From a virus: a stretch of DNA of 28,517 bases. The notes beneath the pieces were generated by a model. That model was given only the letters and a program-made list of their open reading frames with translations, did no database searches and was not told where the DNA came from. Of the stretch, positions 13,159-28,222 are shown in pieces (position 1 is the stretch's first letter; each line of letters starts with the position of its first letter). Both the position numbers and the translations under genes were made by a program. The stretch lies in the IMG/VR virus record IMGVR_UViG_3300012988_000035, positions 1-28,517 of that record; one strand, written 5' to 3'.

Positions 13159-15102
13159 ATGCAGCAGGTCACCCTCGCGCCTTTGGCAGATATCACATCC
13201 ATCATTACCGGAACCACGGCCAGCTGGTCTTTCGAAGTGATGACGGTTTATGTAAACGGGATCAGCACGCCTTTCAGTTGGACAGGGGGAAGCCTTTCCA
13301 TTCCGTCTTACACGGTCGGAACGGTCCTCGTGGAATTCCCGCTCTATCTCTTATACGACGCGCCGAGCCAAAATCTGCCATCCGATCCAACTGACTCAGG
13401 TTCAGATCCAGTCTTCTGGGAAAACCGCCTTCGAAATTTCATCAATTTCAGCACCTCACTCAAGTCCTTCGAATCGGGCCTCACCGAAATCAACGTTGGT
13501 GCCGTCGTGATCCAACTCGATGATGATTGGATCCAACTGGCTCAGCAGCAGCTGATCATGCCAAACACGATTGTCCGGATTTATCGCGATGGCCAGATCG
13601 TTTTTAAAGGCGTGGCAACCAAGCATACGATTTCCGACTATCTGATCACGATCAATATTCAAAAGCGCGTCACGATATTCGACTCTGAATGCCATTTCGG
13701 AGATCCTGCATACCTGAACCGAATCGATCGCAGCACGAACACGGCCTATTACAATGGGGCCAACGTCCCCCAACAGTTCGAGGGCGCTGTCATTCCCATG
13801 CTGTTCGGTCCTGAGTTCCCTTATGATCAGACCGGATACACCGAAATCGATATTGGACCTACCAACCCTGCGGTCCCTGCGACGGGGGGAGCGACTAAAT
13901 TCACCCAGAAAAATATCGAAGCCAATTCATTCATCGTCAAAGTTATACCGACATCATCGACAACTGGCATCATAGGCAGAATGCCATCTTTCCAATCCCT
14001 CGTGTCATCTCCATCGACACAGAGCCTTGGCATTGGAACGCAACGGCCTTATAGCCGAAGTCAGCAATCAAACAATGCCACACTCTATAGCACATCGATC
14101 CAGGGCGAGATTTTCATCATAAAAAGGAACGTTGCCCCGGTATTGACGAACATCAGTCGACTATGGAGAAAACAAACGTCCCCAACGGCATTTCTATATC
14201 TGGGTCTGGAGGACGCGTCCTTTGGAACCTATGACGATATTTTGACCCATTCATCGACCGAACACTGGTTCTCAACCAATATTCCAGACTCCACTTGGAC
14301 CCTTCCCGCGGTATCGTCGGGGTCGTTTACTCCCGGAAACAATCGCTGGATCACGGCCAATTTCACTGGCGTTGACCTTTATACCAATGAAGTTTATGTC
14401 GTATTCACTGGGATAACAGGCGCGGTCGATAACTTTGAGCTCATGCAATGGATACTTGAGCAGCATGGCTTTACGGTCGATGCGGCGTCTTTCGCAAGTC
14501 TATCGGCCGAATTCAGCACCGTTGAAACGATTCAACAGGTCGGGTCTGGAAACGACATGCCGACCCTTGGCACTCTCATAGCTGAAATGAACCAGAGCCT
14601 GATGACTGCTCTCATTTTCCCGTCAGACAACGATGAGCCAATCATCAAAAAGATTGATCCAACAGAGGCAGCAACGCAGACTCTGGACGAAACCCAGATA
14701 GCGCGGCTGTCCGTCTCAAGCGAGTATCGGAATCAGGCGGCCAACGTCCAGTTCCGTCCCAAGTATGCAAGGTCGGACATCTATAAATACTCCCTCTATA
14801 AGAACCTTCAGGCTCCAAATAAGGACCTGTTCGCTTCGCAAAAGACGCTGGAAGTGAATCACGTCCTGAATGAAATCCCGACCAACGTCACCGATCGCTG
14901 GGCGGAAATGACAGAATTATATGGAGCTCCGCAGACGATCGTCACCTTCGATCTATTTGACGACGACGTCACGATTGAGCTGGGGGACATGGTTTACATC
15001 GACCATGACCTATTCAAAAACAAAATCATGATCATCAGCATTGATAACAAAAACCAAGGGCGCACTGTCCAGGGGAGGTACTTCTATGTCAACGAAAACT
15101 AG
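13159..15102 (+). CDS. Putative baseplate hub / tail-tip protein
   Basis: A 647-residue protein. The N-terminal part is beta-rich. The middle (about residues 120-180) has VRIYRDGQIVFKGVATKHTIS followed by LITINIQKR, matching the first hub domain in many phage tail proteins where a small beta barrel defines an axis. The C-terminal part includes IELGDMVYIDHDLFKNKIMIISI, a segment common near the end of hub or tail-spike attachment proteins that resets local coordinates. No peptidase or muramidase motif is apparent. Order (distal tail, small protein, hub, fibre) supports a tip hub. Confidence 0.6.
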   Translation: MQQVTLAPLADITSIITGTTASWSFEVMTVYVNGISTPFSWTGGSLSIPSYTVGTVLVEFPLYLLYDAPSQNLPSDPTDSGSDPVFWENRLRNFINFSTSLKSFESGLTEINVGAVVIQLDDDWIQLAQQQLIMPNTIVRIYRDGQIVFKGVATKHTISDYLITINIQKRVTIFDSECHFGDPAYLNRIDRSTNTAYYNGANVPQQFEGAVIPMLFGPEFPYDQTGYTEIDIGPTNPAVPATGGATKFTQKNIEANSFIVKVIPTSSTTGIIGRMPSFQSLVSSPSTQSLGIGTQRPYSRSQQSNNATLYSTSIQGEIFIIKRNVAPVLTNISRLWRKQTSPTAFLYLGLEDASFGTYDDILTHSSTEHWFSTNIPDSTWTLPAVSSGSFTPGNNRWITANFTGVDLYTNEVYVVFTGITGAVDNFELMQWILEQHGFTVDAASFASLSAEFSTVETIQQVGSGNDMPTLGTLIAEMNQSLMTALIFPSDNDEPIIKKIDPTEAATQTLDETQIARLSVSSEYRNQAANVQFRPKYARSDIYKYSLYKNLQAPNKDLFASQKTLEVNHVLNEIPTNVTDRWAEMTELYGAPQTIVTFDLFDDDVTIELGDMVYIDHDLFKNKIMIISIDNKNQGRTVQGRYFYVNEN

Positions 15103-17692
15103 GAACCTATCGAACATCGATGGCGCGGCCGTTGGGAATCCAACGATGAATGAATTCACGTCCTCATCATTCGAGTCCTATGCGAACGACGCGGCATTCG
15201 AAGTCGATCACGGCGCAGGTGCAGCTGGTGATATCTATTGGAACACGACTGAAAAGCTTATCCGTGAGCATAACGGAACGGCCTGGCAGAATGACAAAAC
15301 TTCGTTTGAAACGCAGACCGACACGACAACGACGGGATCAAACCAGGACATCACGCCAAACACGGTAGCCCAGGTGATTCGCTTTTCCAATGCATCCCTA
15401 TCCAGTATCAGATCGATCATCCCAACGGTTCAAAAAGTCATAACCCTGGTCAATGCCAAGGCCAGCGGGGAAATTACGATCGTCAATGAGTCGGCGGGCG
15501 CGACTGCTGCAAACCGTATCGTAACCGGCACCGGGCAGGACTTCCGGCTTTCTGTCGGCCAAGCGGTTATGTTCATTTATGACATTGGCGGAACGCGCTG
15601 GCGAATGATCGGCGGCGGTGGTGGTGGTCTGGCAACTGAGCTTCAATCGACCGGGTTCACGGCCGTCGCTGGGAAACATTACCTATGTAACACAAGTGCT
15701 GGATCCTTCACGGCTACGCTTCCCGCTGGAGTTGCAGGCGCTGTTATCAGATTTTCAGACGACGCAAGATCCTGGGCAACAAATCCGATAACCATAACTC
15801 CAGCAACTGGCGAATCGATCGACGGGCTTGCAGTCAATACCTCCATCGTAGGTGGGATGAACGGTCAATTCCTACAGTTCATGTGGGATGGCTCCCGTTG
15901 GGTTGCCGACAGCAACAGGATTCCAACTGGCGCGGTAAACGCATGCTCATCATCGACAAATGCGAACGGCTGGACATCGTCCGGCGCTGGCGTTACCGTC
16001 GCGACTACGGTCTCTGCTGCAGAGCTTCCATTGGCTGGGATAATAGACTCGGCAATCAAAATCACTGCCGTCTCAGGCACCGACTACGCCCGATTCCGCT
16101 GGACTATGCCGACAGGTCTTAAGAATTCCACGGTGCCGGTATCCTGGTATCAGCTGGTTGAATCAGGCTATCTGTCTGGTGATTTCAAGCTGGACATCTA
16201 TACAAACTCTGCATCGAACTACGGCGGCGCTTATACCCGCAAGGCTTTACGCACTGACGTTTCGAGTGTCACCAGCATTCCAGCGTCAAACGGTTACTAC
16301 GGCGCTGGCGCGGCTGTTTCGTTCGACGCCGCTGATGAGAGTTATTATGAACTTCGAATCACTCGCGTGAGCGGAACGAAATACATCTCCCTCACGAATG
16401 TGCGGATAGGGCCGGGTGATTCGAGTGTAGTTCCGTCGATTGGCAACTGGCAGAGCTACACACCGACACTGACAAACGGAGGAACGACCAGCACTAACAA
16501 CGGTCGCTGGCGACAGGTCGGAAGCACGATGGAAGTAGAAACTTATGCAGTTTTCACCGGCACTGGCTCAGCGGCTGCGTTTTCTGTTGGTATTCCATCT
16601 GGCTATACCATCGACACAAGAGCGGCCAGCAGTGGCGCAGGAGCAGGCACCCCTGGAACCGCCACTCAGTTTAATGGAACAGACTTTGTTAGTAGAGCTA
16701 TTTATGTAACTGGTAATGCGTTTTTCCTCTTACCATCGGGCGGAACCACTCCGATATTCGGTAACGCGATAGTAAGCGGACACCATATCGGAATTAAAGT
16801 CGCCGTCCCCATTGCCGAGTGGGCCGGCTCAGTCAGCACAGGTCCGGCACCGGCTGAGGAGTTTGTCAGTAACTCATCGACTACGGTAACCACAGATACC
16901 ACCAGTTTTGTTAAGGGAAGCACGCTTGGAACGCAGATCCCTAATGGATCAGCAGCATCCAGCTTTAACAAGCGGGTTGAGTTTCAGTATCCAATTCAGT
17001 CTGACGATGAAATTGTAGTCGAACTGCAAAGTGACACTGGCGGCCCATGGCTTGCTGTGAACAATACAATCAACAACTTGGGTATAGGCGCGCTAACCTA
17101 TTACGGAACTGCGAATCAAGGCATAGGACTTCAGCGCGTCACGGGCAGCAGCACCCAAGTCGATATTGTATTTGGTCGCTATCCATTTAATACAAATGCC
17201 ACCTTTGGCGCTGCGGGGACTGACTGGTCTACTATTTCTGTATCCACCGTCCGCTGGCGCGTACGCAAAACCAAAAAAGCCTCTCTCCCCTACGCAAAAG
17301 CCGATTCTTCTGCAAGCGGATTAGTTGCGCCGAGGAAAGGGCAATCAGCGCTGACTGTAACCAGCACGGTTGCTGGATGGACTACTGCGCGGGCGGTCGG
17401 TGTTTACTATCAAGATCAAGATGGCAACCATCGCTTAAAGTTTAACATAGCTGGAACCGTAACAACTGGTACATATACAGGAGGAACGTGGACTATCTCC
17501 GGTGTAACATTTAAGAATATTTCAAACTACTATCAAGCTATCGCACCCTTCAGTAATGCTAGTAATGGAACTTCTGGATATGTTTCTCCGGGTCTAGCTA
17601 CGATTATTATTTTTCATGCATCTTCAGCAGGCACGGATAGATATGGACTCTCCGGCGATATTGAACTCGATAGCAAACCAAGCTGGGCTTAA
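15086..17692 (+). CDS. Tail fibre / receptor-binding protein
   Basis: An 868-residue protein rich in Thr, Ser, Gly and Asn, as expected for a trimeric fibre. The ATG at 15086 has AGGGGAGG seven bases upstream and overlaps the hub gene by 17 bases. The start (MSTKTRNLSNIDGAA) and the region with DIYWNTTEKLIREHNGTAW match fibre attachment modules. The middle has repeated beta modules (for example GKHYLCNTSAGSFTATLPAG). A Gly-rich GGGGGG stretch near residue 180 is a hinge. From about 16680 the DNA becomes more AT-rich with different codon use, suggesting an exchanged receptor-binding tip. No chaperone gene follows directly. Confidence 0.75.
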   Translation: MSTKTRNLSNIDGAAVGNPTMNEFTSSSFESYANDAAFEVDHGAGAAGDIYWNTTEKLIREHNGTAWQNDKTSFETQTDTTTTGSNQDITPNTVAQVIRFSNASLSSIRSIIPTVQKVITLVNAKASGEITIVNESAGATAANRIVTGTGQDFRLSVGQAVMFIYDIGGTRWRMIGGGGGGLATELQSTGFTAVAGKHYLCNTSAGSFTATLPAGVAGAVIRFSDDARSWATNPITITPATGESIDGLAVNTSIVGGMNGQFLQFMWDGSRWVADSNRIPTGAVNACSSSTNANGWTSSGAGVTVATTVSAAELPLAGIIDSAIKITAVSGTDYARFRWTMPTGLKNSTVPVSWYQLVESGYLSGDFKLDIYTNSASNYGGAYTRKALRTDVSSVTSIPASNGYYGAGAAVSFDAADESYYELRITRVSGTKYISLTNVRIGPGDSSVVPSIGNWQSYTPTLTNGGTTSTNNGRWRQVGSTMEVETYAVFTGTGSAAAFSVGIPSGYTIDTRAASSGAGAGTPGTATQFNGTDFVSRAIYVTGNAFFLLPSGGTTPIFGNAIVSGHHIGIKVAVPIAEWAGSVSTGPAPAEEFVSNSSTTVTTDTTSFVKGSTLGTQIPNGSAASSFNKRVEFQYPIQSDDEIVVELQSDTGGPWLAVNNTINNLGIGALTYYGTANQGIGLQRVTGSSTQVDIVFGRYPFNTNATFGAAGTDWSTISVSTVRWRVRKTKKASLPYAKADSSASGLVAPRKGQSALTVTSTVAGWTTARAVGVYYQDQDGNHRLKFNIAGTVTTGTYTGGTWTISGVTFKNISNYYQAIAPFSNASNGTSGYVSPGLATIIIFHASSAGTDRYGLSGDIELDSKPSWA

Positions 17693-17723
17693 AATCCTTT
17701 CGCCCTCGGGAGGGGGAAAAATT

Positions 17724-17831
17724 ATGAACGACAAAAAGCCAAAAGACTGGAAAAAACCACCGAAAGAAAAACCCGCTGATTCGGAATACCCGACGCGTGA
17801 GGAAAAAAAGAAAGGAAAGAAAAAGAAATGA
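17724..17831 (+). CDS. Lysine-rich 35-residue micro-protein coupled to Acb2-like gene
   Basis: The ATG at 17724 follows a strong GGGAGGGGG. The product has 35 residues, about 40 percent Lys, with many Asp, Glu and Pro (NDKKPKDWKKPPKEKPADSE, then EEKKKGKKKK). It is likely disordered. The same open frame extends upstream to 17616 inside the fibre gene, but no ribosome site is found there. Its stop overlaps the ATG of the next gene (ATGA), so the two are translationally coupled. The function is unknown; a nucleic-acid or acidic-surface binder is conceivable. Confidence 0.55.
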   Translation: MNDKKPKDWKKPPKEKPADSEYPTREEKKKGKKKK

Positions 17832-18064
17832 GTCGATTCGATTACGTTCGCTATGATGAAACTGCGCAGGTCATCCAGAATGCCGCAAAGGACATTTGCT
17901 CGAATCTCGAAAATCTCATCGATGACAATCTTCGGGACGGGCGATCTAAATCATTGGCCCTGACCAAACTCGAAGAGACTTACATGTGGATTGGCAAAGC
18001 AATCCGCGATGATCAGGTTCAGAATCGAGCCGCTGAACTTCAGGAAGAGCGTTTAAACGCATGA
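17828..18064 (+). CDS. acb2: Acb2-like cyclic-nucleotide sponge (anti-CBASS)
   Basis: A 78-residue, all-helical protein. The core (residues about 37-60) reads DGRSKSLALTKLEE then TYMWIGKAIRDD. The Arg-x-Lys-Ser-Leu-Ala-Leu-Thr-x-Leu-Glu-Glu...Trp-x-x-x-Ala-Ile-Arg pattern is the hallmark of the Acb2 family, small phage proteins that form hexamers and sequester cyclic di- and tri-nucleotides made by CBASS (and bind Thoeris signals in some cases). Length and helix-turn-helix hairpin shape fit. It is coupled to the lysine-rich gene upstream and followed by a 10-bp hairpin. The family call is from the motif; ligand range cannot be read from the sequence. Confidence 0.75.
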   Translation: MSRFDYVRYDETAQVIQNAAKDICSNLENLIDDNLRDGRSKSLALTKLEETYMWIGKAIRDDQVQNRAAELQEERLNA

Positions 18065-18070
18065 TCAAAA

Positions 18071-18100
18071 GAGCCGGGGAACTTATCCCGTCCTCGGCTC
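18071..18100 (+). terminator. 10-bp hairpin after Acb2-like gene
   Basis: GAGCCGGGGA at 18071-18080 pairs with TCCTCGGCTC at 18091-18100 (one G-T pair, 10-base loop). No T-run follows, so it may be a Rho-assisted terminator or an mRNA 3' end stabiliser. It separates the structural operon from the haem lipoprotein block. Confidence 0.45.
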
Positions 18101-18121
18101 ATCCCACCCCGCGAATGTTGC

Positions 18122-18151
18122 TTGCATTTTGTTCACTCATTGTCCGATAAT
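18122..18151 (+). promoter_or_regulatory. Candidate promoter of the haem lipoprotein block
   Basis: TTGCAT at 18122-18127, an 18-base spacer and GATAAT at 18146-18151. The -10 box is a five of six match and the -35 box matches only at TTG. It lies in the only intergenic gap of this region and would start transcripts near 18158, about 30 bases before the ATG at 18187. Confidence 0.4.
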
Positions 18152-18186
18152 CAAAAGATTCAATCACTTCAGTCATGGGTTATTTT

Positions 18187-19665
18187 ATGAAGACTATGTG
18201 CATTCCAGCCATGCTATGTCTTTTTGCGGCCTTCGGCTGTCAGCAGCCCGTGAACAAAACTGTTCAGGTTGAGGTGCCGGTCCCCCAACTGCCTATCGAA
18301 CCAGCTCCCCCTGTCGAGCCCGGCAAACCTGGGTTTTTGCGTTTCGATGAGATTGAACAGTATGCCGATCGCGACATCAAAACCCTGAACGCGACCGATC
18401 GTAGTCGGACCCGTTACCTTCTGACATGTGACCTTTATGATCAGGGCATCAAGGACCTTTCAAACGTCCTGGCCGGGATCAACAAAGGGATCAATATGGT
18501 CTCGACTGAGCGGCTCATCGCCTACGTCAATACCATCGATGAGGACGTAGGGTGCGTGCACCGCATCAATCTTGACGATATCGGCATGACCAATGAGGAA
18601 TGGCAGAAGTTTGAACGCTCGAACGTCCTCCCCTTCATTTCAAACTCGGTGCGCGGGCGTACGCTGAGAGCTCTGACAGGCACCAATCAGCCGATGGTTT
18701 ACGCGTCCAGCTTTTTCCTGACTGTGATGCAGGCCGACCAGGTCTCGATCGGAAACCAGCTTTACTACGATCTGACCGAGCAGCCGCTGAACGACACCGA
18801 GTTTTTGGCCAAACTTGGCATAGACCTTCAAAAGGAATTCAATGAGGAGAGCCCCGCGTGCGCGGCCGGGGGGAAGTCGCAAATTGCGTTAGGAAAGCCG
18901 AGGCTCATATGCATCCTCGATACCACGGCCGATGGATTTTTGATGTTCACGGGCGATGTTTCCCTGGCTAAAAACGATTCCATCCAGCAAAACCCGTTTT
19001 TCAAAAACATGGCCCTGATTCCCGGGTTCGCGACTAACAAGGTATTCAATTTTGTCGCAAGCGAATGGATCTTTAGTCTGCCAAACGGACTGATGACAGG
19101 CTATCGATTGTCAAATGCCGGGGGAACAGCGGAAGTTATCGCGCCCACGAACGTCGTCATCGATATCGAGCAGGCGGGCAAGGGCCTGCCGCCAGATATC
19201 ACCCTCGGAGCATGCTCAAACTGCCATCATCAGGAATCGGGGATCTTTTTCAGAGATGAGGTTTTCTCAATCGTCCAAAACAATGGGAATTTTAATGCAG
19301 CCGAAAAGGCATTGGCTGACACTTTCTATCGCGCGGATAAGTTTCAGGCCAAGCGTGCCGTGGCCAACCGCGAGCATACCGACGCTCTTAAACGCATTGG
19401 CGTGAGCACGTTTGCCGAAGATCCGGTTGTAACTGAACTGATTCAACCGCTCCGGGGCGAGCTCACTTTGGATAAGGTCGCAGGCAAGGTTTTCCTGGAA
19501 CCCGATGAATTCCGCATACGCCTGGCCGGGACTAATCTGAGTAAGGTCCTATTCGGGGCCCTGCTTGAACCGGGCGGGGTTGTGGCGATCAGTGATTTCA
19601 GCCGGGGCTTTAGAACGCTTGCCGATGAGCTGAGACTTTTCCGTGATGCAGGCCAATTGGATTAA
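18187..19665 (+). CDS. c-type cytochrome lipoprotein of unknown role
   Basis: A 492-residue protein from the ATG at 18187; an in-frame ATG at 18175 would add four residues, and neither has a clear ribosome site. It opens with a short basic and hydrophobic signal (MKTMCIPAMLCLFAAFGC), the last Cys being a likely lipidation site, followed by a Pro-rich linker. About residues 50-130 contain ATDRSRTRYLLTCDLYDQG and later RINLDDIG, a pattern I associate with an uncharacterised family of large bacterial cytochromes. A single haem-binding CSNCH occurs at about residues 343-347, followed by another His. The mature protein would sit in the periplasm on a membrane. It is followed nine bases before a second haem lipoprotein. 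No phage role is known. Confidence 0.65.
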   Translation: MKTMCIPAMLCLFAAFGCQQPVNKTVQVEVPVPQLPIEPAPPVEPGKPGFLRFDEIEQYADRDIKTLNATDRSRTRYLLTCDLYDQGIKDLSNVLAGINKGINMVSTERLIAYVNTIDEDVGCVHRINLDDIGMTNEEWQKFERSNVLPFISNSVRGRTLRALTGTNQPMVYASSFFLTVMQADQVSIGNQLYYDLTEQPLNDTEFLAKLGIDLQKEFNEESPACAAGGKSQIALGKPRLICILDTTADGFLMFTGDVSLAKNDSIQQNPFFKNMALIPGFATNKVFNFVASEWIFSLPNGLMTGYRLSNAGGTAEVIAPTNVVIDIEQAGKGLPPDITLGACSNCHHQESGIFFRDEVFSIVQNNGNFNAAEKALADTFYRADKFQAKRAVANREHTDALKRIGVSTFAEDPVVTELIQPLRGELTLDKVAGKVFLEPDEFRIRLAGTNLSKVLFGALLEPGGVVAISDFSRGFRTLADELRLFRDAGQLD

Positions 19666-19683
19666 TCGATAGGAGTGGAGACG

Positions 19684-20001
19684 ATGAAATTTCTGCTGGC
19701 AATCGTTTTTCTGATCGTTTCCTGCGGGGGTCCTGCACCGCAGCAGCAGGCGCAACAGCCTATTCCCGGACCAACTCCGACGCCCACGCCTCAGCCAGGC
19801 GGGAAAACCAGCTTCGCTGATGCTCAGTCGATAATGAAAAATTACTGTAACGATTGTCATGCAACGGCGGCCTTCACCAAAACCGAGCAGGCGCTGATAG
19901 CGTCCTCGGCAAAGTCGCGCGTGCAGAATTCCACGATGCCCCCACCATATGCCTCTCAAATGAGTGCGGGGGACAAAACGAAGTTCCTTGGTTTTTTTTA
20001 A
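19684..20001 (+). CDS. Small monohaem cytochrome c lipoprotein
   Basis: A 105-residue protein. The ATG at 19684 has AGGAG eight bases upstream, and an upstream GTG at 19675 is less likely. A lipoprotein signal ends at FLIVSC (Cys14). Then comes a Gln/Pro/Thr-rich spacer to about residue 38. The remaining domain has CNDCH at residues 55-59 and STMPPPY with Met85, followed by a short helix. His from CxxCH and Met before Pro-Pro are the usual axial ligands of class I cytochromes c, so this looks like a complete small electron carrier tethered to a membrane. It lies directly after the larger haem lipoprotein, which suggests they work together. Confidence 0.75.
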   Translation: MKFLLAIVFLIVSCGGPAPQQQAQQPIPGPTPTPTPQPGGKTSFADAQSIMKNYCNDCHATAAFTKTEQALIASSAKSRVQNSTMPPPYASQMSAGDKTKFLGFF

Positions 20002-20013
20002 GGATCGAATGAA

Positions 20014-20217
20014 GTGAGCGCATATCACGATTATAACGATCACATTTCAGCGCGTGTTCCAAAGCGCCGAAAGGTCGACCTTGAATTTGATTCGGTCCAA
20101 TCCCGCGGCGGTCATTTCCTTTTCCACATGGATGGGAAACTGATCTGCGTTATCGACAAAAACTATTTCGACCAGCGCCAAAGTGATTTTTTTGAAGCGA
20201 TATCGGAACCAACGTAA
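20014..20217 (+). CDS. Small protein of unknown function
   Basis: A 67-residue protein with a GTG start at 20014, supported by AAGGA nine bases upstream. It carries a basic patch (RVPKRRKVDLEFD) followed by strands (GGHFLFHMDGKLICVIDKN) and an acidic end. There is no signal peptide, so unlike its two upstream neighbours it stays in the cytoplasm. It is followed by a strong terminator. Its role is unknown; it could regulate the block or be an unrelated phage gene. Confidence 0.5.
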   Translation: MSAYHDYNDHISARVPKRRKVDLEFDSVQSRGGHFLFHMDGKLICVIDKNYFDQRQSDFFEAISEPT

Positions 20218-20292
20218 TATGCTTTTCTGTGCGAGAGTGTAGGGACATCGAGCTTTGTTTTCATAACTCCTGGAAGTATAGAAAAAGGCGAA

Positions 20293-20325
20293 GGGCGCGG
20301 CATGGATCATGCAGCGTCCTTTTTT
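20293..20325 (+). terminator. Strong rho-independent terminator
   Basis: GGGCGC-G-GCATG at 20293-20304 pairs with CATGC-A-GCGTCC at 20308-20319 (one G-T pair, one G-A mismatch, three-base loop), followed by six T (20320-20325). It ends the haem lipoprotein block only 32 bases before the lysis genes, so the latter need read-through or antitermination. Confidence 0.75.
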
Positions 20326-20356
20326 ATTACACAATTTTTTTCGCGATGGAGGCAAG

Positions 20357-20680
20357 ATGGACGCTGAGTTACTCCAGCATTTGAAAGACTTCAGTCCCTT
20401 GACACTCGGGGTTTTGGTCCTGCTCTATGGATTGAAAAGACTGCCTTACTACGCGCTAAAAAAAATGGAGCTTCAGCATCAGGAGAAGGACAAGATCTTA
20501 GTTCATCTTAATGAACAGCTCGATGAACTGAAAGCGGACTTGGAAAAAATGAAAAGCGATTTGTCCGAATACCGGCAAAAGTTTTTTGATTTGCAGGTCG
20601 AGCATGCCAGCCTCAAGGCCGAGCATGAACAGCTACGGGGGGTTCTGAAAGCATATGAACAGAAAAAAGCTAAGCGCTGA
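20357..20680 (+). CDS. Membrane-anchored coiled-coil lysis protein (holin- or spanin-like)
   Basis: A 107-residue protein. The ATG at 20357 has GGAGG four bases upstream; the open frame upstream (from 20309) lacks this. Residues about 14-34 form one hydrophobic segment (LTLGVLVLLYGLKRLPYY). The rest is a charged coiled coil (about 38-105). One N-terminal membrane helix plus a long coiled coil fits an Rz-like inner-membrane spanin, or one of the small phage proteins often labelled as holin-associated. It overlaps the endolysin gene by 26 bases, which supports a lysis role. No nested Rz1-like lipoprotein frame was found. Confidence 0.55.
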   Translation: MDAELLQHLKDFSPLTLGVLVLLYGLKRLPYYALKKMELQHQEKDKILVHLNEQLDELKADLEKMKSDLSEYRQKFFDLQVEHASLKAEHEQLRGVLKAYEQKKAKR

Positions 20681-21044
20681 TTTCTTTGAAGACGAGTTCT
20701 GGTCGCCCGACACGAATATGGCAAAAATGAGTGCGGAGTTTATTTATAAACTGCAAAAGCTCAGGACCGTCGTAGGCGTCCCGTTTCTGATTGCACCAGG
20801 GGGTGGGTATAGGACAGCCGAGTATAACGCCAGGATGCAGGGATCCAGCGGTTCAAAGCACATGGAAGGGATAGCAGTCGACGTCGATCATACTCGATGG
20901 GACGGCGCGATAAGGTTTCAATTCATATCTGCAGCGTGCGCACTTGGGTTTTCGGTTGGGATATATCCCAAGCATTTTCACATCGACACTCGTCAGGGCC
21001 AGAAGGTGCTCTGGGTAAGCCTTTATAAGAAGGCGAAAACCTAG
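20655..21044 (+). CDS. Endolysin, peptidase M15 family
   Basis: A 129-residue protein with the M15 zinc peptidase signature. It contains GGYRTAEYN, then SKHMEGIAVDVD with His69 and Asp76, and KHFHID with His109. These are the expected zinc ligands of the VanY / L-alanyl-D-glutamate type peptidases. It has no signal peptide, so it needs a holin to reach the wall. It cuts peptide cross-links or stems of peptidoglycan at the end of infection. The start lies within the previous gene, and the stop overlaps the end of a small - strand gene by three bases. Confidence 0.85.
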   Translation: MNRKKLSADFFEDEFWSPDTNMAKMSAEFIYKLQKLRTVVGVPFLIAPGGGYRTAEYNARMQGSSGSKHMEGIAVDVDHTRWDGAIRFQFISAACALGFSVGIYPKHFHIDTRQGQKVLWVSLYKKAKT

Positions 21045-21160
21045 TCCCTGATGAGTTTTTTAGAAGCTGGCACGATGATACTGGGAAGTATCCTATCGAC
21101 CAGCTTTTTCTTCAGAAAATTCATATCAAGGATTGGCCCGGGCTCTTTTTTGCTTTCCAT
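21041..21160 (-). CDS. Small 39-residue basic protein of unknown function
   Basis: On the - strand, an ATG (bases 21158-21160) is preceded by GGAG at an eight-base spacing. The 39-residue product starts MESKKEPGPILDMNFLKKKL and ends IIVPASKKLIRD. It is basic and partly helical. The strong ribosome site and a candidate promoter just upstream favour a real gene. It is antisense to the surrounding + strand genes and lies inside a pair of inverted repeats. It may instead reflect regulatory DNA. Confidence 0.45.
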   Translation of the reverse strand: MESKKEPGPILDMNFLKKKLVDRILPSIIVPASKKLIRD

Positions 21161-21178
21161 GTTCATAGCTCCTATGCT
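21150..21178 (+). promoter_or_regulatory. Weak candidate promoter for the YceI gene
   Basis: TTGCTT at 21150-21155, a 17-base spacer and TATGCT at 21173-21178. Both boxes are partial matches. A transcript starting near 21185 would lack the left inverted repeat, leaving the YceI ribosome site free. Confidence 0.25.
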
Positions 21179-21206
21179 CAAATAGCCGGAAATCAACCTA
21201 TCTCAA
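21179..21206 (-). promoter_or_regulatory. Candidate promoter of the 39-residue - strand gene
   Basis: On the - strand, TTGAGA (bases 21201-21206), a 16-base spacer and TATTTG (21179-21184). The -35 box is a five of six match, the -10 box weaker. It sits 19 bases before the start codon. Confidence 0.3.
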
Positions 21207-21220
21207 TTCAGGGACTAAGC

Positions 21221-21712
21221 ATGTTTAAACAGGTTTTCACATTGATTTCCATCGCAATGTTATTGGCAAGCGGTTTTGTCATGGCTGCAGGCAAATGCGA
21301 AATCACAGGTCACGCCGTGAAAGGGACGCTCGATTTCAGCGTTGCTGGCTGCATCATCGAGGGGAAGCCAAAGATCGAAGGCGGCAAGGTCACTGGGGAA
21401 TTCACCGTCGACACAACGAAACTTGACGGCGGCGTTCGCAATCAGCATATGCACGAAAAATATCTGGAAACAAAGTCATTCCCAAAGGCCATCCTCAAGC
21501 TTGACCCTATGCCGGAAGCCGGCGGCCCGTTCACAGGAAAGCTGAGCCTTCATGGCAATGAAAAAGAAATCAAGGGCGTGGCAGAAAAGTCCAGCATCGG
21601 CTACGGGTTCAAATTCGAAATCAATCGGAAGGAATTTGGCATTGCTGAAGTCAGTTATAAAGACATTCTTATCGGTGATTCTCTTAGCGTCTCTGGCACT
21701 ATTGATAAGTGA
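21221..21712 (+). CDS. YceI-family periplasmic protein
   Basis: A 163-residue protein with a Sec signal peptide (about residues 1-22, ending FVMAAG) and a beta-rich mature part. The block RNQHMHEKYLETKSFPKAIL and later FTGKLSLHGNEKEIKG and INRKEFGIAE follow the YceI pattern (R-x-x-H-x-x-x-x-x-F-x-x-x-x-x-P, then G-x-L-x-x-x-G-x-x-K, then R-x-x-F-G). YceI lipocalin-like barrels bind polyisoprenoids and quinone-like lipids in the periplasm. The gene has AGGGA six bases before its ATG, inside the right inverted repeat. Its end overlaps the next gene by 71 bases. The mature part is shorter than typical. Confidence 0.8.
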   Translation: MFKQVFTLISIAMLLASGFVMAAGKCEITGHAVKGTLDFSVAGCIIEGKPKIEGGKVTGEFTVDTTKLDGGVRNQHMHEKYLETKSFPKAILKLDPMPEAGGPFTGKLSLHGNEKEIKGVAEKSSIGYGFKFEINRKEFGIAEVSYKDILIGDSLSVSGTIDK

Positions 21713-22712
21713 TAGAGCGTTCTGTTATCCTCAGACTATCGTCCATGGCTATTCAAATTGCGCAACGTGCCACCTCACTGGGGATGGCGGGGATGTCTTG
21801 AATAACTATGGACGGGCCATGACCGAGGAGTTCATGGCATCGTTCGCGCGCGAGGGAGAAGCGCGGGAATTCTTTGGCCTCGGTGAAGCTGACTTTCTGG
21901 ACCTTGGGATCGATTACAGATCAATGAGGATACAGGATGCAGGGACGGGCGAAAGCGATCAATTCCACATGTATACAGTGGGTCAATTGGCTCTTAGACA
22001 TGATGGCCTTAGTTTGTTTGGCAGTGCTGGATATTTTGGGAGAGACCGAGAATATCAGACGCGAAACTACGGAGTGAATTATCATGTCGATATTGACACT
22101 CATAGCGTGGATTTCAAGCTCGGTTATTGGATGCCTGTGGTTGGCATTGGGCTCAATAATCATGATCTTTCGATTAAAAAAGCCCAAGGATTCGGACGGG
22201 GACAGGAAAAATTCATAACCCAGGTCACTTGGCTCAATCGCTGGTTTGAGCTCAAAGCGCTGCAGACCCGATCCGACATCGAGATAGTGAAAGGCCCCGA
22301 CAATTTCCCAAAGAACGAAGCGGACGATAAGCCTGAGTATCTCTTGGATCTGAAGCTGAAACGAATCGAGAAGTTTGAATTCGGCCTGCATACCCGGGTC
22401 CAGGATGGGGTCCAAACTCTTATCGGTTACTCAACAAGGATATCCAAGGGCCATGCATATATCTTTCTGCAGCAGGATATCGATCAGAGTAAAGGAATCT
22501 TAACCGACTACGGGAGGTTTGGATTCTACCCGGTGCGCGGCCTTGACCTTTATTTTGAGCAGGATCAGATAAAAACTTCGCTGAATCCTGAAATTACTCG
22601 TCGGTCTTTAGGTTTTTCATGGATGATTCGCCCAAGGTTGGAATATGAAGGGACAGGGATGCAATGGGGACAAAGGCGGTTCTACTCGACAAGCCTGAAG
22701 CTCTGGCTCTGA
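21642..22712 (+). CDS. Outer-membrane beta-barrel with N-terminal c-type haem motif
   Basis: The start is a TTG at 21642, with GGAAGGAA seven bases upstream. From there a signal peptide follows directly (LLKSVIKTFLSVILLASLAL, then a cut near FCYP). An earlier ATG at 21552 would put a long non-signal leader in front. Then comes GYSNCATCH (CATCH, residues 40-44), TGDGGDVLNNYGRAMTEE, and an array of alternating strands to the aromatic end TSLKLWL. A haem c motif followed by Gly-Gly and YGR, then a barrel, is a layout I recall from Gram-negative bacteria using outer-membrane redox proteins. At 356 residues the barrel would be of medium size. It overlaps YceI by 71 bases, so they are probably co-translated. 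Confidence 0.65.
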   Translation: MLKSVIKTFLSVILLASLALLISDRAFCYPQTIVHGYSNCATCHLTGDGGDVLNNYGRAMTEEFMASFAREGEAREFFGLGEADFLDLGIDYRSMRIQDAGTGESDQFHMYTVGQLALRHDGLSLFGSAGYFGRDREYQTRNYGVNYHVDIDTHSVDFKLGYWMPVVGIGLNNHDLSIKKAQGFGRGQEKFITQVTWLNRWFELKALQTRSDIEIVKGPDNFPKNEADDKPEYLLDLKLKRIEKFEFGLHTRVQDGVQTLIGYSTRISKGHAYIFLQQDIDQSKGILTDYGRFGFYPVRGLDLYFEQDQIKTSLNPEITRRSLGFSWMIRPRLEYEGTGMQWGQRRFYSTSLKLWL

Positions 22713-23035
22713 AAGAATTCGTTTCCGAAAAGTATTTGCAGAATCAGATCATCGAGTATCTGAATGCGAATACCGATGGGATGTTTTGGCAAAACGATAG
22801 CATCGGCATCAAAGGTCGCAAAAGGCAAAACCGTTACCGACCAAACGGTGTAGCCGATATCCTCGGCGTCATCGATGGCCATTCAATTGCGATCGAAGTC
22901 AAAGCACCAAAGGGAAAGATCCTTCAGAGTCAAATGACCTTCGCGGAAAAATTCCGACGCTCTGGGGGATCTTATTATGTTGTACGGTCTTTTGAAGACA
23001 TTTCAGAACTGGTTAAAATCAATGGCTGGATTTGA
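22664..23035 (+). CDS. VRR-NUC domain nuclease
   Basis: A 123-residue protein with the PD-(D/E)xK nuclease core. It has YLQNQIIEYL at the start, then a basic stretch, PNGVADILGVI (Asp65), and IAIEVKAP (Glu78, Lys80), followed by QSQMTFAEKFRRSGGSYYVV. These match VRR-NUC enzymes, found in phages as small stand-alone nucleases that cut branched DNA. A GGGAT precedes the ATG. It overlaps the beta-barrel gene by 49 bases and is the only nuclease visible in the window. It may serve in recombination, packaging or repair with the RecT-like protein of the facing operon. Confidence 0.8.
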   Translation: MGTKAVLLDKPEALALKEFVSEKYLQNQIIEYLNANTDGMFWQNDSIGIKGRKRQNRYRPNGVADILGVIDGHSIAIEVKAPKGKILQSQMTFAEKFRRSGGSYYVVRSFEDISELVKINGWI

Positions 23036-23216
23036 GACAGATAAAAAAATCCTCGATTCCCAGTTTTCCTTGCTGGACAGCATGTCGACTGACCAGCTTG
23101 AGGACCTGACCAACGGCTATGAATCATTCAAGCTGAAGGTCCTGGGGCACCTGCATGATACGACTGACAAGCTCGAGTTCCTATACCAGCTGGTCAGGCT
23201 AAGACAAAAGCAATGA
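22977..23216 (+). CDS. Small helical protein of unknown function
   Basis: A 79-residue protein if the ATG at 22977 is used, with GGGGGA seven bases upstream. An in-frame ATG at 23022 would give 64 residues with less overlap of the nuclease gene but no ribosome site. The shared part is helical and acidic (STDQLEDLTNGYESFKLKVL, then KLEFLYQLVRLRQKQ). I do not recognise it. It is the last + strand gene before the convergent - strand operon, 18 bases away. Confidence 0.5.
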   Translation: MLYGLLKTFQNWLKSMAGFETDKKILDSQFSLLDSMSTDQLEDLTNGYESFKLKVLGHLHDTTDKLEFLYQLVRLRQKQ

Positions 23217-23234
23217 GAGAGAGTCAATCCGCTT

Positions 23235-23510
23235 TCATAGGGGGGATTCTTTTCCCCCCTCTCTCTTAAACTCCCTAAGACGTCGATTCATTTCTTTATT
23301 CACATCGTCTGGATGCATACCGCGAAAGTCTTTAAGATTCATCATGCCGTCGATTCCCGTAATAAGGATCGCCCTTGCACTGACGGGGTCGGGACAATTC
23401 ATGACTTGATCAGCAGCGATGGCAACGATCGCACTAAATGTCGCCGCAGGATCGCGCTTAGCCAAAGTATCGACCGTTGTTTTGATGATATTCAGGATTT
23501 CGTCATTCAT
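23235..23510 (-). CDS. Small protein of unknown function at end of recombination operon
   Basis: A 91-residue protein whose start overlaps the RecT stop (ATGA). It is helical, with an alanine-rich middle (AATFSAIVAIAADQV) and a basic end (NKEMNRRLREFKREGGKE). No membrane segment or motif is evident. It is the last gene of the leftward operon, and its final codons form the G-run of the hairpin at 23239-23260. Confidence 0.55.
   Translation of the reverse strand: MNDEILNIIKTTVDTLAKRDPAATFSAIVAIAADQVMNCPDPVSARAILITGIDGMMNLKDFRGMHPDDVNKEMNRRLREFKREGGKESPL
23239..23260. terminator. Hairpin at the convergence of the two operons
   Basis: AGGGGGG at 23239-23245 pairs with CCCCCCT at 23254-23260 around an eight-base loop. 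Flanking GAGAGAG and CTCTCTC runs can lengthen the stem. There is no T-run on either strand, so efficiency is uncertain. The position between converging genes fits a two-way terminator. Confidence 0.4.
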
Positions 23511-24652
23511 GTTTTATCCATCCCGTTCACATGTGCTGACAGCTTTTTATAGAATGTCAAAAGGTCTGAAAGGCCGGCGGTCTCCATGACAGACGGCGGC
23601 GTGCCGGTTTTTTCAAGTATGATGCCATTGGTCAATTTGTTCGACCTAATCAGCGCTTTCAGCTTTTCCAGAATTTCAAGGCGCTGCTGTTCATCGGCGT
23701 CAGGTTCCGGCTGTTCAGATTGCGCTGCTGGCGGTTCTGGTTCATAGGTCGAAAGAACCTGCCATACAGCTATCAGCTGCTGATAGGCCAGGACCTTTAT
23801 ATCCTCTAGCGACATGAGACCAAGCGCAGTTAGAACCTGGAATTCCTGAACGCCGGACTGCATCATGTCGGCTATTTTCTTTTCGATCCTGTCCAGCAGG
23901 TCAAAGCGGGCATGTTCTTGTGCCTTTTTTTCCTCTGATCGCGCAATGTCCTGCATAGCCAGCCTTGCATCGGCGGGCGGCGTCACGTCAAGGACCGTCC
24001 CCTTTTCAGCCTGTTCCTTAATTTCGTCGACTGTGTCGCTGGAACCGCCGAATGCATGAGCACCGGTCGCTCGGATAAGGAATGTCGCAGCGCGCTTTTC
24101 CAGCATATAGTCTGGCATCGTCACCCATTTGCTTCCCTTTTTTTCTGTCCAGCCTTCCTTTTTTGCCATGGCAAGGCTGACTTCGCTTCCCTCAGCTGTC
24201 GAACCGTCTGGCCTTGTCCCCACTGCTATGCAGGTTCGGGTTCCATCTTCAATGGATCCAGTTTTCACGTAGTCAATTTTCGTGAAAATTTTCAGTTCAA
24301 GCACACGGGAAATCATGAACTCTGCATACCAACCGTGTCGGCCGTGGACGAAATAGCCGCCTTGCAGGACCTCGGGCAGGCCGATTCCCATCCGTTCGGC
24401 CTTGAACGACATGATATAGATCGACCGAATGTCGCCCTTGAATGCATCGGGGACCAGTCCGCTCTGAACAGTTGAAAGGAAATAAGCCCTTTGAAGGTGC
24501 CGCGTTTCCCTTTCGTCCATACCATAGACTTCGGCAATCAGTTTGATTTCATCCCTGGTGGCTTGTATTTCAGCCATGGAACCGAATGGCGAACTCGATC
24601 TCTGTGGCGCTGCTGCTGCACTGGCGCTGCTGCGAATCATATTTGTCTGCAT
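23507..24652 (-). CDS. RecT-like single-strand annealing protein
   Basis: A 381-residue protein. About residues 40-230 follow the RecT pattern: helical start (MSFKAERMGIGLPEVLQGGY), GRHGWYAEFMISRVLELKIF, then the strand pair ending CIAVGTRPDG. Next comes the diagnostic W-x-x-MPDYMLEKRAATFLIRA segment, and AFGGSSDTVDEI. The remaining 150 residues are Ala/Glu/Gln-rich and less conserved. RecT proteins bind ssDNA and anneal strands for recombination-dependent replication. AAGGA ten bases upstream supports the start. It follows the Gp157 gene by three bases. No partner exonuclease (RecE, lambda Exo or YqaJ type) is found in the window. Confidence 0.8.
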   Translation of the reverse strand: MQTNMIRSSASAAAAPQRSSSPFGSMAEIQATRDEIKLIAEVYGMDERETRHLQRAYFLSTVQSGLVPDAFKGDIRSIYIMSFKAERMGIGLPEVLQGGYFVHGRHGWYAEFMISRVLELKIFTKIDYVKTGSIEDGTRTCIAVGTRPDGSTAEGSEVSLAMAKKEGWTEKKGSKWVTMPDYMLEKRAATFLIRATGAHAFGGSSDTVDEIKEQAEKGTVLDVTPPADARLAMQDIARSEEKKAQEHARFDLLDRIEKKIADMMQSGVQEFQVLTALGLMSLEDIKVLAYQQLIAVWQVLSTYEPEPPAAQSEQPEPDADEQQRLEILEKLKALIRSNKLTNGIILEKTGTPPSVMETAGLSDLLTFYKKLSAHVNGMDKT

Positions 24653-24655
24653 TGT

Positions 24656-25237
24656 TCATATATCCTTTAAAACTGAAAACCGTATGCCCGGTCTTTTTGC
24701 AATTGAAGCGAACTCCCGCACTTTTTCAGCCATGGCCTTGTCAGTTTCCGACTCCGGGGCCGATTTCAATATGCGTTTGATGTCTGTTTTTTTCCATTCA
24801 TAAGTCGTCTTGATGAGATCGTGGAAGTGAATGCTGTGGTGGGCAGCAGGTTCAGACAGCTTCAGGTCGACGTATTCAGAGTATTGCATTCGGACCTTAT
24901 ACTGATGGCCGACGAATTTCTCAAATCCATTGTTTTCCATTGCGAACATCAGGTGTGATTCCAGCCTTTCGCGCTGGTTATCAATAGTCTTTCGCGCGGT
25001 CTTATATTCGTTTTCCTTGCGCTTCAATTCATCGGAGATAGTTTCCATGCGATCCATGAGATACTTGTAGGAATCAATTTTGACTTTCCCCTGCTCTAAA
25101 AGATCGGGGACGTCGTCAAGATTGACTTCCAGCATGGCCTCATCGGCCAGGCACAGGGCCTGCAAAAGTTCATTCAGTGTTTTTGGTTTGACGATGGTCC
25201 GCTCTGGCGGCTCGGGGGATTGATCGATGCTGTCCAT
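24656..25237 (-). CDS. Siphovirus Gp157-family protein
   Basis: A 193-residue protein. The ATG ending at 25237 has AGGGA seven bases upstream, better than the TTG at 25252. The N-terminal half is a long coiled coil (KIDSYKYLMDRMETISDELK, then KEYNEYKTARKTI-like charged helix). The C-terminal half carries a short strand region (FEKFVGHQYKVRMQYS). A final segment has KKTDIKRILKSAPE and GIRFSVLKD, the usual end of the Gp157 family, where a Lys-x-x-hydrophobic-K pattern ends in a beta hairpin. These proteins occur next to phage recombination genes. Gp157 was first described in streptococcal phages, and its role is unclear. Confidence 0.7.
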   Translation of the reverse strand: MDSIDQSPEPPERTIVKPKTLNELLQALCLADEAMLEVNLDDVPDLLEQGKVKIDSYKYLMDRMETISDELKRKENEYKTARKTIDNQRERLESHLMFAMENNGFEKFVGHQYKVRMQYSEYVDLKLSEPAAHHSIHFHDLIKTTYEWKKTDIKRILKSAPESETDKAMAEKVREFASIAKRPGIRFSVLKDI

Positions 25238-25244
25238 TTGGGTT

Positions 25245-25291
25245 TCCCTCAATCAAAAATTGATGAGGGAACTATAGCCTAATTTTTAGGC
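25245..25291 (-). promoter_or_regulatory. Candidate promoter and two palindromic operators before Gp157
   Basis: On the - strand a TATAGT box lies at 25271-25276. Next to it upstream is the perfect palindrome GCCTAA-TTT-TTAGGC (25277-25291). Downstream, TCCCTCA (25245-25251) and TGAGGGA (25264-25270) form a second palindrome over the expected transcription start, which also contains the Gp157 ribosome site. No good -35 box is present, so an activator may be needed. Confidence 0.45.
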
Positions 25292-25323
25292 AAAATCCAG
25301 CAAAAGCAGGCGGGGAGCGGGGT

Positions 25324-25560
25324 TTAGGTTTTAGGGCTCCTCGGTTTTCTCATTCCCTCAACCAAGATCGGAACGGGGACGTCGAAAAGCCAGGCGCTTT
25401 TTGTGCCACACTGAATGCACTGATATCTCACAAGATCAGATTTCGGATCTGCAAACCAGGATTCTGTGTTGCACAGTTCCAATCCGCAACCAGGGCAATA
25501 GCAGAAAGTTGTTTGGTTCCGATTGTATTTTTTCACTAGCCAGCGGGCGATAGTTTCCAT
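25324..25560 (-). CDS. Small zinc-ribbon protein
   Basis: A 78-residue protein with CYCPGCGLEL (Cys22, Cys25) and QCIQCGTKS (Cys48, Cys51), a four-cysteine zinc ribbon. The N-terminal helix is basic (RWLVKKYNRNQ) and the tail after the ribbon ends in a basic KPRSPKT. Such proteins in phage early operons often bind nucleic acid or other proteins. The start abuts the stop of the preceding gene (TGAATG). The partner is unknown. Confidence 0.55.
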   Translation of the reverse strand: METIARWLVKKYNRNQTTFCYCPGCGLELCNTESWFADPKSDLVRYQCIQCGTKSAWLFDVPVPILVEGMRKPRSPKT

Positions 25561-25767
25561 TCATTTCCCCATCCCAGCATTGGTGATCCGACCGCAAGCA
25601 AGCCATGACCCGGCCCTGCCCGTCCGCAATTCCTGAACGACATACGTATTGCCGTGCTGTCTCAGCTTTTTAGGAAAACGGACCCAGGCCTTTTCGTGTC
25701 GGGCGCGGATCCGTTTCGTTTTTGGATCATATACGATTTCGACTCTGGCGTCGGTTTTGATGGTCAT
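25561..25767 (-). CDS. Small basic protein of unknown function
   Basis: A 68-residue, strongly basic, beta-rich protein (RVEIVYDPKTKRIRARHEKA, WVRFPKKLR, TYVVQELRTG). The ATGA start overlap with the preceding gene and a direct junction to the next gene place it in the Rep operon. The basic surface is consistent with nucleic-acid binding, but no motif is recognised. Confidence 0.5.
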   Translation of the reverse strand: MTIKTDARVEIVYDPKTKRIRARHEKAWVRFPKKLRQHGNTYVVQELRTGRAGSWLACGRITNAGMGK

Positions 25768-26246
25768 GATTTGTCCTGCAATTCATTCAGGTATTGCGAC
25801 ACAGATCTCCCGTCGTCAATAAAAAAGTGATCCTCCCCATACATTTGAGTCAGTGCTTCATCCCTGCGTATATAGGCATTTTCAAAAATATCCACGGATT
25901 GGCAGATTGTTTGCATTGGGAGTTGAGGGTTCTGCCAACTAGAAGCAAACTGGATGGATCTCATGAAATCCAAGTGAATTTCGCAGAGAATATTTTCCAT
26001 GGCTTCCCCAGGAAATCTGCTTAGAGCCAATTCATAGTTGTATTCAATCCTTGCCAGCAATCTTTGATATGCATTAGCATTTAACCATGAAGTCCCAACT
26101 TCGTCGGCAAATTTTCCTATCCCAACAATTCGCTCGGCGGTTGGTTCATTCTTGAAATAGAAACTTTCATCCAAATGCTCCTTCGGGCATTCGGGCCATA
26201 GTTTCAAAGCTTCCTGCTGGATTTTGTTTTTCGTTTTCGCGTTCAT
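25764..26246 (-). CDS. Protein of unknown function downstream of rep
   Basis: A 160-residue, mostly helical protein. The ATG ending at 26246 has AAGGA five bases upstream and starts one base after the rep stop. A TTG at 26267 would overlap rep by 20 bases and has no ribosome site. The middle has aromatic-rich helices (YQRLLARIEYNYELALSRF, HLDFMRSIQFASSW). No membrane segment, metal site or catalytic motif is evident. Its stop overlaps the next start as ATGA. Confidence 0.5.
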   Translation of the reverse strand: MNAKTKNKIQQEALKLWPECPKEHLDESFYFKNEPTAERIVGIGKFADEVGTSWLNANAYQRLLARIEYNYELALSRFPGEAMENILCEIHLDFMRSIQFASSWQNPQLPMQTICQSVDIFENAYIRRDEALTQMYGEDHFFIDDGRSVSQYLNELQDKS

Positions 26247-26247
26247 G

Positions 26248-27039
26248 TCAATCCTTGACCAACTCAAGATGGCGATTTTTGAAATTGTCTGCAGCCATCG
26301 GGTCGTGCTTCCGCAATTCCGAAAGAACTTCGTCCATTGTCTTTCTAATATCCGCCGTCAGTTGTTGCATTTCCTGTCGCAGTTTTTCATTGCCCAGCTG
26401 CATTTCTTCTTTCAATGCTTGGAATTGCATCTCTCTCTCCTTTTGTTCCCCAATCCATTTTTCGGATTCCCTAGCGTGTGCTTCAATCATGTTCTGTATC
26501 TGGTCTTTGAGGGATTTTATTTCGCTATTGTCGTTACTATTTTCATGTCGACGTTTTGCGGATATCGCGGCGCTAAGTCTTTTCACCGATAGCAGATTTG
26601 GCAGACGGGTATCCGTCAAACCCCTTGCTGATGCCCATTTTGAATAAGCTTCCCTCAATTCAGTTTCGAGTTCTATACTCTCAAACTCCCATATTCCAGA
26701 TAAATATTTCGCCCTATTTGCCACTGCAGGGTTTATCCGACAGGCCCTACGAGTTTTTACGTCGATAAAAATTATCAGGTTTAATTCTGCGAGACGCTTA
26801 AGATGCTTATTCACTTCGCTTTTATCGATTTTGAAACGTTCCTGGATAAATTGACTCACGGAAGCGTCTTCAACCTCAAAGCAGTTGCCCATGTCCATTT
26901 TGAAAATCATCTCCATGAATATGGACATTTCAGTCGGCTTGAGCACTAACGGTAGAATGACGAACAGGTAAGGGTTTGGTCGATAAAAAATAGGGATCGG
27001 CTGAATATTATTTTTTTGGTGCGATGTGCTGGATGCCAT
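26248..27039 (-). CDS. Replication-initiator-like winged-helix protein with coiled-coil tail
   Basis: A 263-residue protein in two parts. About residues 20-130 have an alpha/beta layout ending in a winged helix: VSQFIQERFKIDKSEVNKHL, KRLAELNLIIFIDV, then RRACRINPAVANRAKYL. The recognition helix followed by a wing and a terminal Ile-Asn-Pro is typical of plasmid and phage replication proteins such as the RepL type. About residues 150-260 are a charged coiled coil. It lies first in a leftward operon next to the iteron-like repeats at 27190-27225, supporting an origin-binding role. A transcriptional regulator is the alternative. GGAG eleven bases upstream supports the start. Confidence 0.55.
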   Translation of the reverse strand: MASSTSHQKNNIQPIPIFYRPNPYLFVILPLVLKPTEMSIFMEMIFKMDMGNCFEVEDASVSQFIQERFKIDKSEVNKHLKRLAELNLIIFIDVKTRRACRINPAVANRAKYLSGIWEFESIELETELREAYSKWASARGLTDTRLPNLLSVKRLSAAISAKRRHENSNDNSEIKSLKDQIQNMIEAHARESEKWIGEQKEREMQFQALKEEMQLGNEKLRQEMQQLTADIRKTMDEVLSELRKHDPMAADNFKNRHLELVKD

Positions 27040-27119
27040 GCTATAGACCGCTCCGAGAGTTACTGATTATTTTTTGGTCAGGGACATTTTCTTAACGGAT
27101 GTTCCGATATATGTGAAGT

Positions 27120-27150
27120 CCGGTCTTGTCAGAGGCCGGTCTTTTTTTTT
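27120..27150 (+). terminator. Rho-independent terminator upstream of rep, + strand
   Basis: CCGGTC at 27120-27125 pairs with GGCCGG at 27134-27139 (one G-T pair, eight-base loop), followed by nine T at 27142-27150. No + strand gene precedes it, which leaves a small RNA or a leader of the - strand transcript as its user. Confidence 0.5.
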
Positions 27151-27189
27151 ACCCATTGCCAGATCGTGCTATTTTTTCGGCCATAAAGG

Positions 27190-27225
27190 CGAGGTGGAAA
27201 TCCTCCTCGACCGAGGTGGAAATCC
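27190..27225. repeat. Two iteron-like direct repeats 22 bp apart
   Basis: CGAGGTGGAAATCC occurs exactly at 27190-27203 and 27212-27225. Start-to-start spacing is 22 bp, two helical turns. Each copy is followed by a CT-rich stretch that can pair with its GAGG. This is the usual look of initiator binding sites near a rep gene. Confidence 0.55.
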
Positions 27226-27393
27226 CCTCCGCCATATGCGGTGAAAGCCGCGCGCACCAAGGCCTCATTTTTACCCTTCTTAAGACATCTATGTATCAAG
27301 GGCTTTTGTCCTCTCCTCAGGTCGATTACGGCGCATTTATTTTTCAGCGCACGCGATCCCATCGCTTGGTTTTTTTGTTCAGAAACTAAACAG

Positions 27394-27409
27394 GCATTCT
27401 ACGGAATGC
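27394..27409. repeat. Short perfect hairpin in control region
   Basis: GCATTC and GAATGC form a six-base-pair stem around the loop TACG. No T-run follows. It may be part of an origin or a binding site. Confidence 0.35.
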
Positions 27410-27634
27410 TATTTACGGCAATCGATGCAAACGAAACGCGCGCTGCAAGCCGCGTTGATGATCATAATACTCCTACCAAAACTCTGCATCCGTTGGTATA
27501 TAAAGGTTTCAAGGTTTTTAAAAAGTCGTCCAAAAAACAGGAAAATTCTGATCCATGAATTGCAAGTACATGATATCAGCGAACTATTTAATTTTTCTTA
27601 GGGTGTTATCATCACACGTGAAATGAGGTTTTTT

Positions 27635-28027: not shown

Positions 28028-28048
28028 AAGACGTTCCGCTGAGCTATC

Positions 28049-28088: not shown

Positions 28089-28141
28089 CTTTGAATCTGG
28101 ATTGACGTTTTTTCCCCAGGGATCTAATGTCCGGACTGAAA

Positions 28142-28158: not shown

Positions 28159-28178
28159 GCAATCACAAGCCTATCGGT

Positions 28179-28207: not shown

Positions 28208-28222
28208 GAGGAAACGTGCCAA

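Follow-up and report, generated by a model that had tools for sequence, protein, structure and literature searches.

Three haem-c-motif proteins and a YceI-family protein encoded around the lysis genes of a phage lineage, and their relation to a Bdellovibrionota operon

What use could a phage have for a set of exported proteins with haem c motifs, encoded on both sides of its lysis genes? The question is raised by the complete IMG/VR record IMGVR_UViG_3300012988_000035, a linear 28.5-kb fragment analysed here over its whole length of 28,517 bases ("the window"). An earlier note on this DNA had pointed to three CxxCH proteins (here A, B, and C) and a YceI protein, in two groups around lysis genes. 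Open reading frames for all four are found where it placed them, give or take a few codons, with an M15 endolysin and a coiled-coil protein with one transmembrane (TM) segment encoded between the groups. The reading we prefer, with a probability of roughly one half, is that the phage has, among its late genes, its own version of an envelope operon of Bdellovibrionota, acquired once and long ago, to which A is added, arranged around the lysis cassette and serving as an envelope redox/quinone module until lysis.

The haem-c-motif proteins, YceI and the genes between them

A (18175-19665, + strand) is a predicted lipoprotein of 496 amino acids, with a lipobox at Cys22 and one CSNCH (residues 347-351, nucleotides 19213-19227). 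B (19675-20001, or from an ATG at 19684; + strand), of 105-108 amino acids, has a lipobox at Cys17, a Pro-rich linker, a CNDCH (residues 58-62, nucleotides 19846-19860), and an MPPP (residues 88-91, nucleotides 19936-19947). From their signal and lipobox features, both are predicted to be envelope lipoproteins. A YceI-family, lipocalin-like protein with a signal peptide, predicted to be periplasmic, is encoded at 21221-21712 (+ strand; Pfam YceI, E = 2.4e-12, 47.9 bits against a cut-off of 23.7), with profile matches to E. coli YceI (1y0g) and a polyisoprenoid-binding protein (5w2x). The gene for C (21642-22712, + strand; start codon uncertain, 21552 or 21642) overlaps its end.

C is predicted to be a porin-like outer-membrane barrel preceded by an N-terminal haem c segment (CATCH at residues 40-44, nucleotides 21759-21773), in which the motif YPQ-x4-GY-x2-C-x2-CH-x4-G-x6-YGR can be recognized. 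In an AlphaFold model (19 sequences; predicted local distance difference test score, pLDDT, 74; predicted template modelling score 0.70), most of the barrel has a pLDDT of 80-90, while the haem segment is of low confidence; its closest counterparts in the Protein Data Bank are porins, OmpU among them (E = 1.3e-10). The model thus favors the beta-barrel suggested in the earlier note, and the locations it proposed for A, B, and C find support in these predictions.

Three CxxCH proteins among the 35 considered in the window, with one motif each, are far more than expected by chance: the mean after shuffling was 0.005, and none of 5000 amino-acid shuffles reached three. A, B, and C have both export features and a CxxCH in all of the clade phages examined (below), and all three are called haem-c-motif proteins here, ones that probably work like cytochromes c. 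This term is used because none of them has a curated cytochrome domain above cut-off (Pfam Cytochrome_CBB3: B 13.8 bits and C 16.7 bits, against 27), although the B homologues of putative hosts do: most of the B-like host lipoproteins tested were above the cut-off for Cytochrome_CBB3 or PSCyt1. There was no Pfam match to A, no useful match to A or B among solved structures, and no NCBIfam name for A, C, or host C.

The block is not peculiar to this record. When 2.9 million viral contigs were searched with A, with C, and with YceI, the same phage contigs came back every time (YceI is present in all of the first six recovered). These share one collinear phage type with the window, whose open reading frames could be mapped onto them, in the order portal, capsid, tail, tape measure, A, B, a 67-amino-acid protein, TM/coiled-coil protein, M15 endolysin, YceI, and C. 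Recurrence in related phages, which the earlier note had put forward as a check, is borne out: seven contigs besides the window span the region, and all have the block genes in the same order, at 48-100% identity (66-100% for A in the seven, 56-100% for YceI in other clade phages). A search independent of the block, with a tail protein, found ten contigs, with the block in all that reach the region; one (G377) ends just after C, and three stop short of the region. A slightly relaxed pattern for the C motif matched 8 of the 2.9 million contigs, all from this clade.

Across the clade, at identities down to 48%, the haem motifs, the lipoprotein cysteines, and the methionine of the B MPPP are invariant. 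Ratios of non-synonymous to synonymous polymorphism (pN/pS), reported for six genes (the 509-amino-acid tail protein not among them), are 0.28-0.40 for the block, similar to the values for the capsid gene, 0.30, and the endolysin gene, 0.32. The block is under purifying selection, and phages of this type retain it in the long term.

Between the two groups, a 67-amino-acid protein without a known domain (20014-20217, + strand) follows B and precedes the lysis genes in all phages that have the block. It is followed by the TM/coiled-coil protein (20309-20680, with a likely ATG at 20357; + strand), a holin-like candidate, with a weak match to a holin PHROG driven by the coiled coil; its acidic N-terminus and the basic residues after the TM segment suggest an N-out/C-in orientation. 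The M15 peptidase endolysin (20655-21044, + strand) matches Pfam Peptidase_M15_3 (5.4e-9) and an endolysin/lysis PHROG (1.9e-17).

A related operon in Bdellovibrionota, and the probable hosts

A degenerate DNA pattern for the C haem motif matched 16 of 84,980 prokaryote species genomes. All 16 fall within a set of 369 genomes that stand for one phylum, by record titles Bdellovibrionota (the set also holds records titled Nitrosovibrio, Proteobacteria, and only "bacterium"), and a profile search found the C family in 218 of the 369. Of the 30 nearest host loci, 28 have YceI beside C, with C directly after YceI in nearly all, and a lipoprotein with one or two haem c domains is usually found upstream of YceI, giving a chromosomal operon in the order B-like lipoprotein cytochrome, YceI, C. 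Phage B matches the haem domain of the first gene of this operon, and the host B-like proteins align with it along the Pro-rich linker as well as at the CxxCH and around the MPP. The earlier note's suggestion that B, YceI, and C act together gains support from the occurrence of the same three families as an operon. No paper on a B-YceI-C operon or on phage haem porins was found in the literature; the operon uncovered here, with its predicted haem-bearing porin, is widespread in Bdellovibrionota and unnamed.

Because the pattern for the C motif was matched only by Bdellovibrionota among the prokaryote genomes scanned, and because these have the B-like-YceI-C operon, the phage set is read as a diverged copy of that operon, split by the lysis cassette and with A added. 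The two versions share their three families, the C motif, and the position of YceI beside C. They differ in that the phage B and YceI genes are not contiguous, the small open reading frame, the TM/coiled-coil gene, and the endolysin gene intervening in every genome, and in that phage B has one haem domain where many hosts have two. Phage and host C are about 18-25% identical in the aligned set. In trees, the phage sequences fall into a single clade both for C and for YceI (support 100/100 in each), the stem being 2.83 changes per site long for C and 1.62 for YceI, and phage C is nested within a Bdellovibrionota group (support 97/100). This fits one old acquisition of C and YceI, from a donor lineage that cannot be named. 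Taken together, the identity of the genes, their conservation, the selection on them, and their homology to the host operon are shown by the computational analysis.

A has a separate background. It is a distant member of a family with the pattern "IFSLPNGL ... CxxCH," present in 7 of the 369 Bdellovibrionota genomes and distinct from the families of the B-YceI-C operon; a genome scan with the A alignment itself returned nothing. One A-like host protein, of 886 amino acids (L095, 4473-7133, - strand), joins two haem c motifs to a domain of the FGE-sulfatase type (formylglycine-generating enzyme-like). A conserved gene of 300-365 amino acids without a Pfam match comes after C in one host clade, near DUF1501- and PSCyt3-like genes (weak hints).

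The phage clade is likely to infect Bdellovibrio-like bacteria or other Bdellovibrionota. A search of Bdellovibrionota genomes found relatives of the capsid or tail proteins in three metagenome-assembled genomes (MAGs): a 34.8-kb phage-like contig (G286 contig 52) with a tail protein 39% identical, a contig of 13.5 kb on which five head genes are collinear, at 28-38% identity, and weaker matches in a third (the MAG contigs include G251 contig 49 and G045). The 34.8-kb contig has no homologue of A, B, YceI, or C; the other two are partial. The findings as a whole point to tailed phages of Bdellovibrionota.

Possible functions of the block

An envelope redox/quinone module is favored because of the position of the genes, on the same strand as the late genes and with haem or YceI genes on both sides of the endolysin, and because of the properties of YceI lipocalins, which are often found with ubiquinone-8 or another isoprenoid bound; one from Burkholderia, together with the haem protein cytochrome b561, counters lipid peroxyl radicals (PMC9113575). 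In such a module, A, B, YceI, and C would be made alongside the structural and lysis proteins and then exported, and the host cytochrome c maturation system would attach haem. A and B would reside in the envelope as lipoproteins, YceI would ferry quinone or another isoprenoid across the periplasm, and C would have its one haem at the periplasmic mouth of the outer-membrane barrel. By drawing electrons from over-reduced quinone or from lipid radicals, the module could keep the envelope energised and undamaged until the holin fires. Loss of membrane potential is known to be linked to the triggering of holins. The host, the electron transfer, its partners and timing, and the benefit to the phage are what we infer; viral control of envelope electron flow late in infection becomes testable.

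Several points weigh against this reading. Each protein has just one haem motif, and the block encodes no quinol-oxidising or inner-membrane electron donor, which leaves the electron path across the periplasm suggested in the earlier note hypothetical. The fold of A could not be predicted (AlphaFold, six sequences, pLDDT 37). The Bdellovibrionota operon is itself of no known function, and the assignment of the host is based on gene homology and on the distant relatives in MAGs (28-39% identical where closest), not on a match to clustered regularly interspaced short palindromic repeats or on a prophage of this clade.

Comparison with known systems gives partial likenesses. In MtrAB-type conduits, haem c and an outer-membrane barrel also act together, as a multihaem wire; the phage proteins differ in having one haem motif each, which in C is fused to the N-terminus of the barrel. 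As with phage auxiliary metabolic genes, host-derived metabolic or redox genes have been kept by a phage; the difference is that this lineage keeps a whole envelope haem c set rather than a single metabolic gene, linked to lysis by its position beside the lysis genes.

One alternative, which seems unlikely, is receptor replacement or superinfection exclusion: C, helped by YceI and the lipoproteins, would alter the outer-membrane surface and block adsorption of other phages or the loss of particles on debris. In its favor, the model predicts a porin-like barrel for C, other phages have predicted proteins of this kind, and lambdoid Lc is an example of phage porins that change receptors. The likeness to the Lc-type porins is that of a phage-encoded porin-like barrel; C differs in carrying a haem c motif and in coming with putative cytochromes and YceI. 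Exclusion would leave unexplained the joint invariance of the haem motifs, the B Met ligand, YceI, and A, as well as the match of the partners of C to a host operon of redox type.

As a second possibility, and a similarly doubtful one, the block might detoxify lipid radicals in the narrow sense of BcnA and LcoA of Burkholderia, with YceI-bound ubiquinol quenching lipid peroxyl radicals and the phage cytochromes re-reducing it, so as to protect envelope and virions. The precedent is close in that a YceI lipocalin and a haem protein are coupled in one operon and act in the envelope (PMC9113575). It differs in that the phage block has c-type motif proteins and a predicted haem porin, and no cytochrome b561 among its genes. 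A Met-ligated cytochrome c, as B would be, is usually an electron acceptor at the potential of quinone, rather than a donor.

As a third possibility, which we consider improbable, the Pro-rich lipoprotein B, the barrel C, or both might replace spanins in opening the outer membrane after endolysin action. The genes directly flank those for the M15 endolysin and the TM/coiled-coil protein, the block shows no spanin pair of the ordinary kind, and B is small and Pro-rich, with a weak match to a spanin PHROG (E = 0.29). That match is not significant, however, and the Pro linker and haem domain of B are common to host chromosomal proteins and so need not be lysis adaptations; nor would this role have a place for A and YceI. 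Another link to lysis, which we regard as equally improbable, is that the haem c/YceI module could be part of the lysis clock, with electron uptake or release setting the membrane potential and hence the timing of the holin. If so, lysis time would vary with how well oxygen is supplied to a Bdellovibrio-like host or with its redox state.

Lysogenic conversion, raised in the earlier note, is disfavored, since no tyrosine integrase was found: the Phage_integrase profile had no match in eight records, one of them with terminal repeats, in a search that detected 14 of 14 positive controls and did not cover serine integrases or other integration routes. Finally, the block could be ordinary cargo of no use to the phage, either host genes picked up recently by accident or a piece of chromosome brought in by faulty assembly. 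This is hardly credible and was rejected: all four families do have Bdellovibrionota homologues, but the genes are kept in every region-spanning member of the clade, and the recent, decaying host copy in a single genome that the earlier note had allowed for is at odds with the pN/pS values and the long-stemmed, single phage clades.

The record, its relatives and neighboring genes

The earlier note had taken the sequence as one phage genome, which holds for gene content, given the collinear relatives; the record itself is a linear fragment. A relative of 35,812 bases (35.8 kb; G003), with a 127-base direct repeat at its ends, looks like a complete genome on the basis of that repeat. The window is 100% identical to G002 (3300012985_000024) over 3115-13158 and to G001 (3300012984_000032) over 9633-28517, with 83-97% identity outside these stretches. 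Such a mosaic could be due either to natural recombination or to chimeric assembly, with the junction lying somewhere in the 9.6-13.2 kb common to both stretches. The A-B-YceI-C finding is unaffected, because the block lies wholly in the part identical to G001 and is seen independently in each relative.

Among 50,697 phage records, there was no match to A, YceI, or C, and among cultured phages no relatives of these or of the 509-amino-acid tail protein; capsid matches to cultured phages are at only about 24-27% identity. In the window, promoter and terminator scans did no better than on shuffled sequences, there was no Rfam match, and no PADLOC match that would support a defence role. The early region of G001 (20352-20912) encodes a further secreted protein, of 186 amino acids, with a CTPCH; it has no Pfam match and was not found in other clade phages.

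A VRR-NUC nuclease gene (22664-23035, + strand) overlaps the end of C, and adjoins C in several relatives. Directly upstream of A, a 78-amino-acid protein (17828-18064, + strand) has an Acb2/Tad1 hairpin domain (Pfam, E = 2.2e-11), making it a likely cyclic-nucleotide sponge against defence of the cyclic-oligonucleotide-based antiphage signalling system (CBASS) type.

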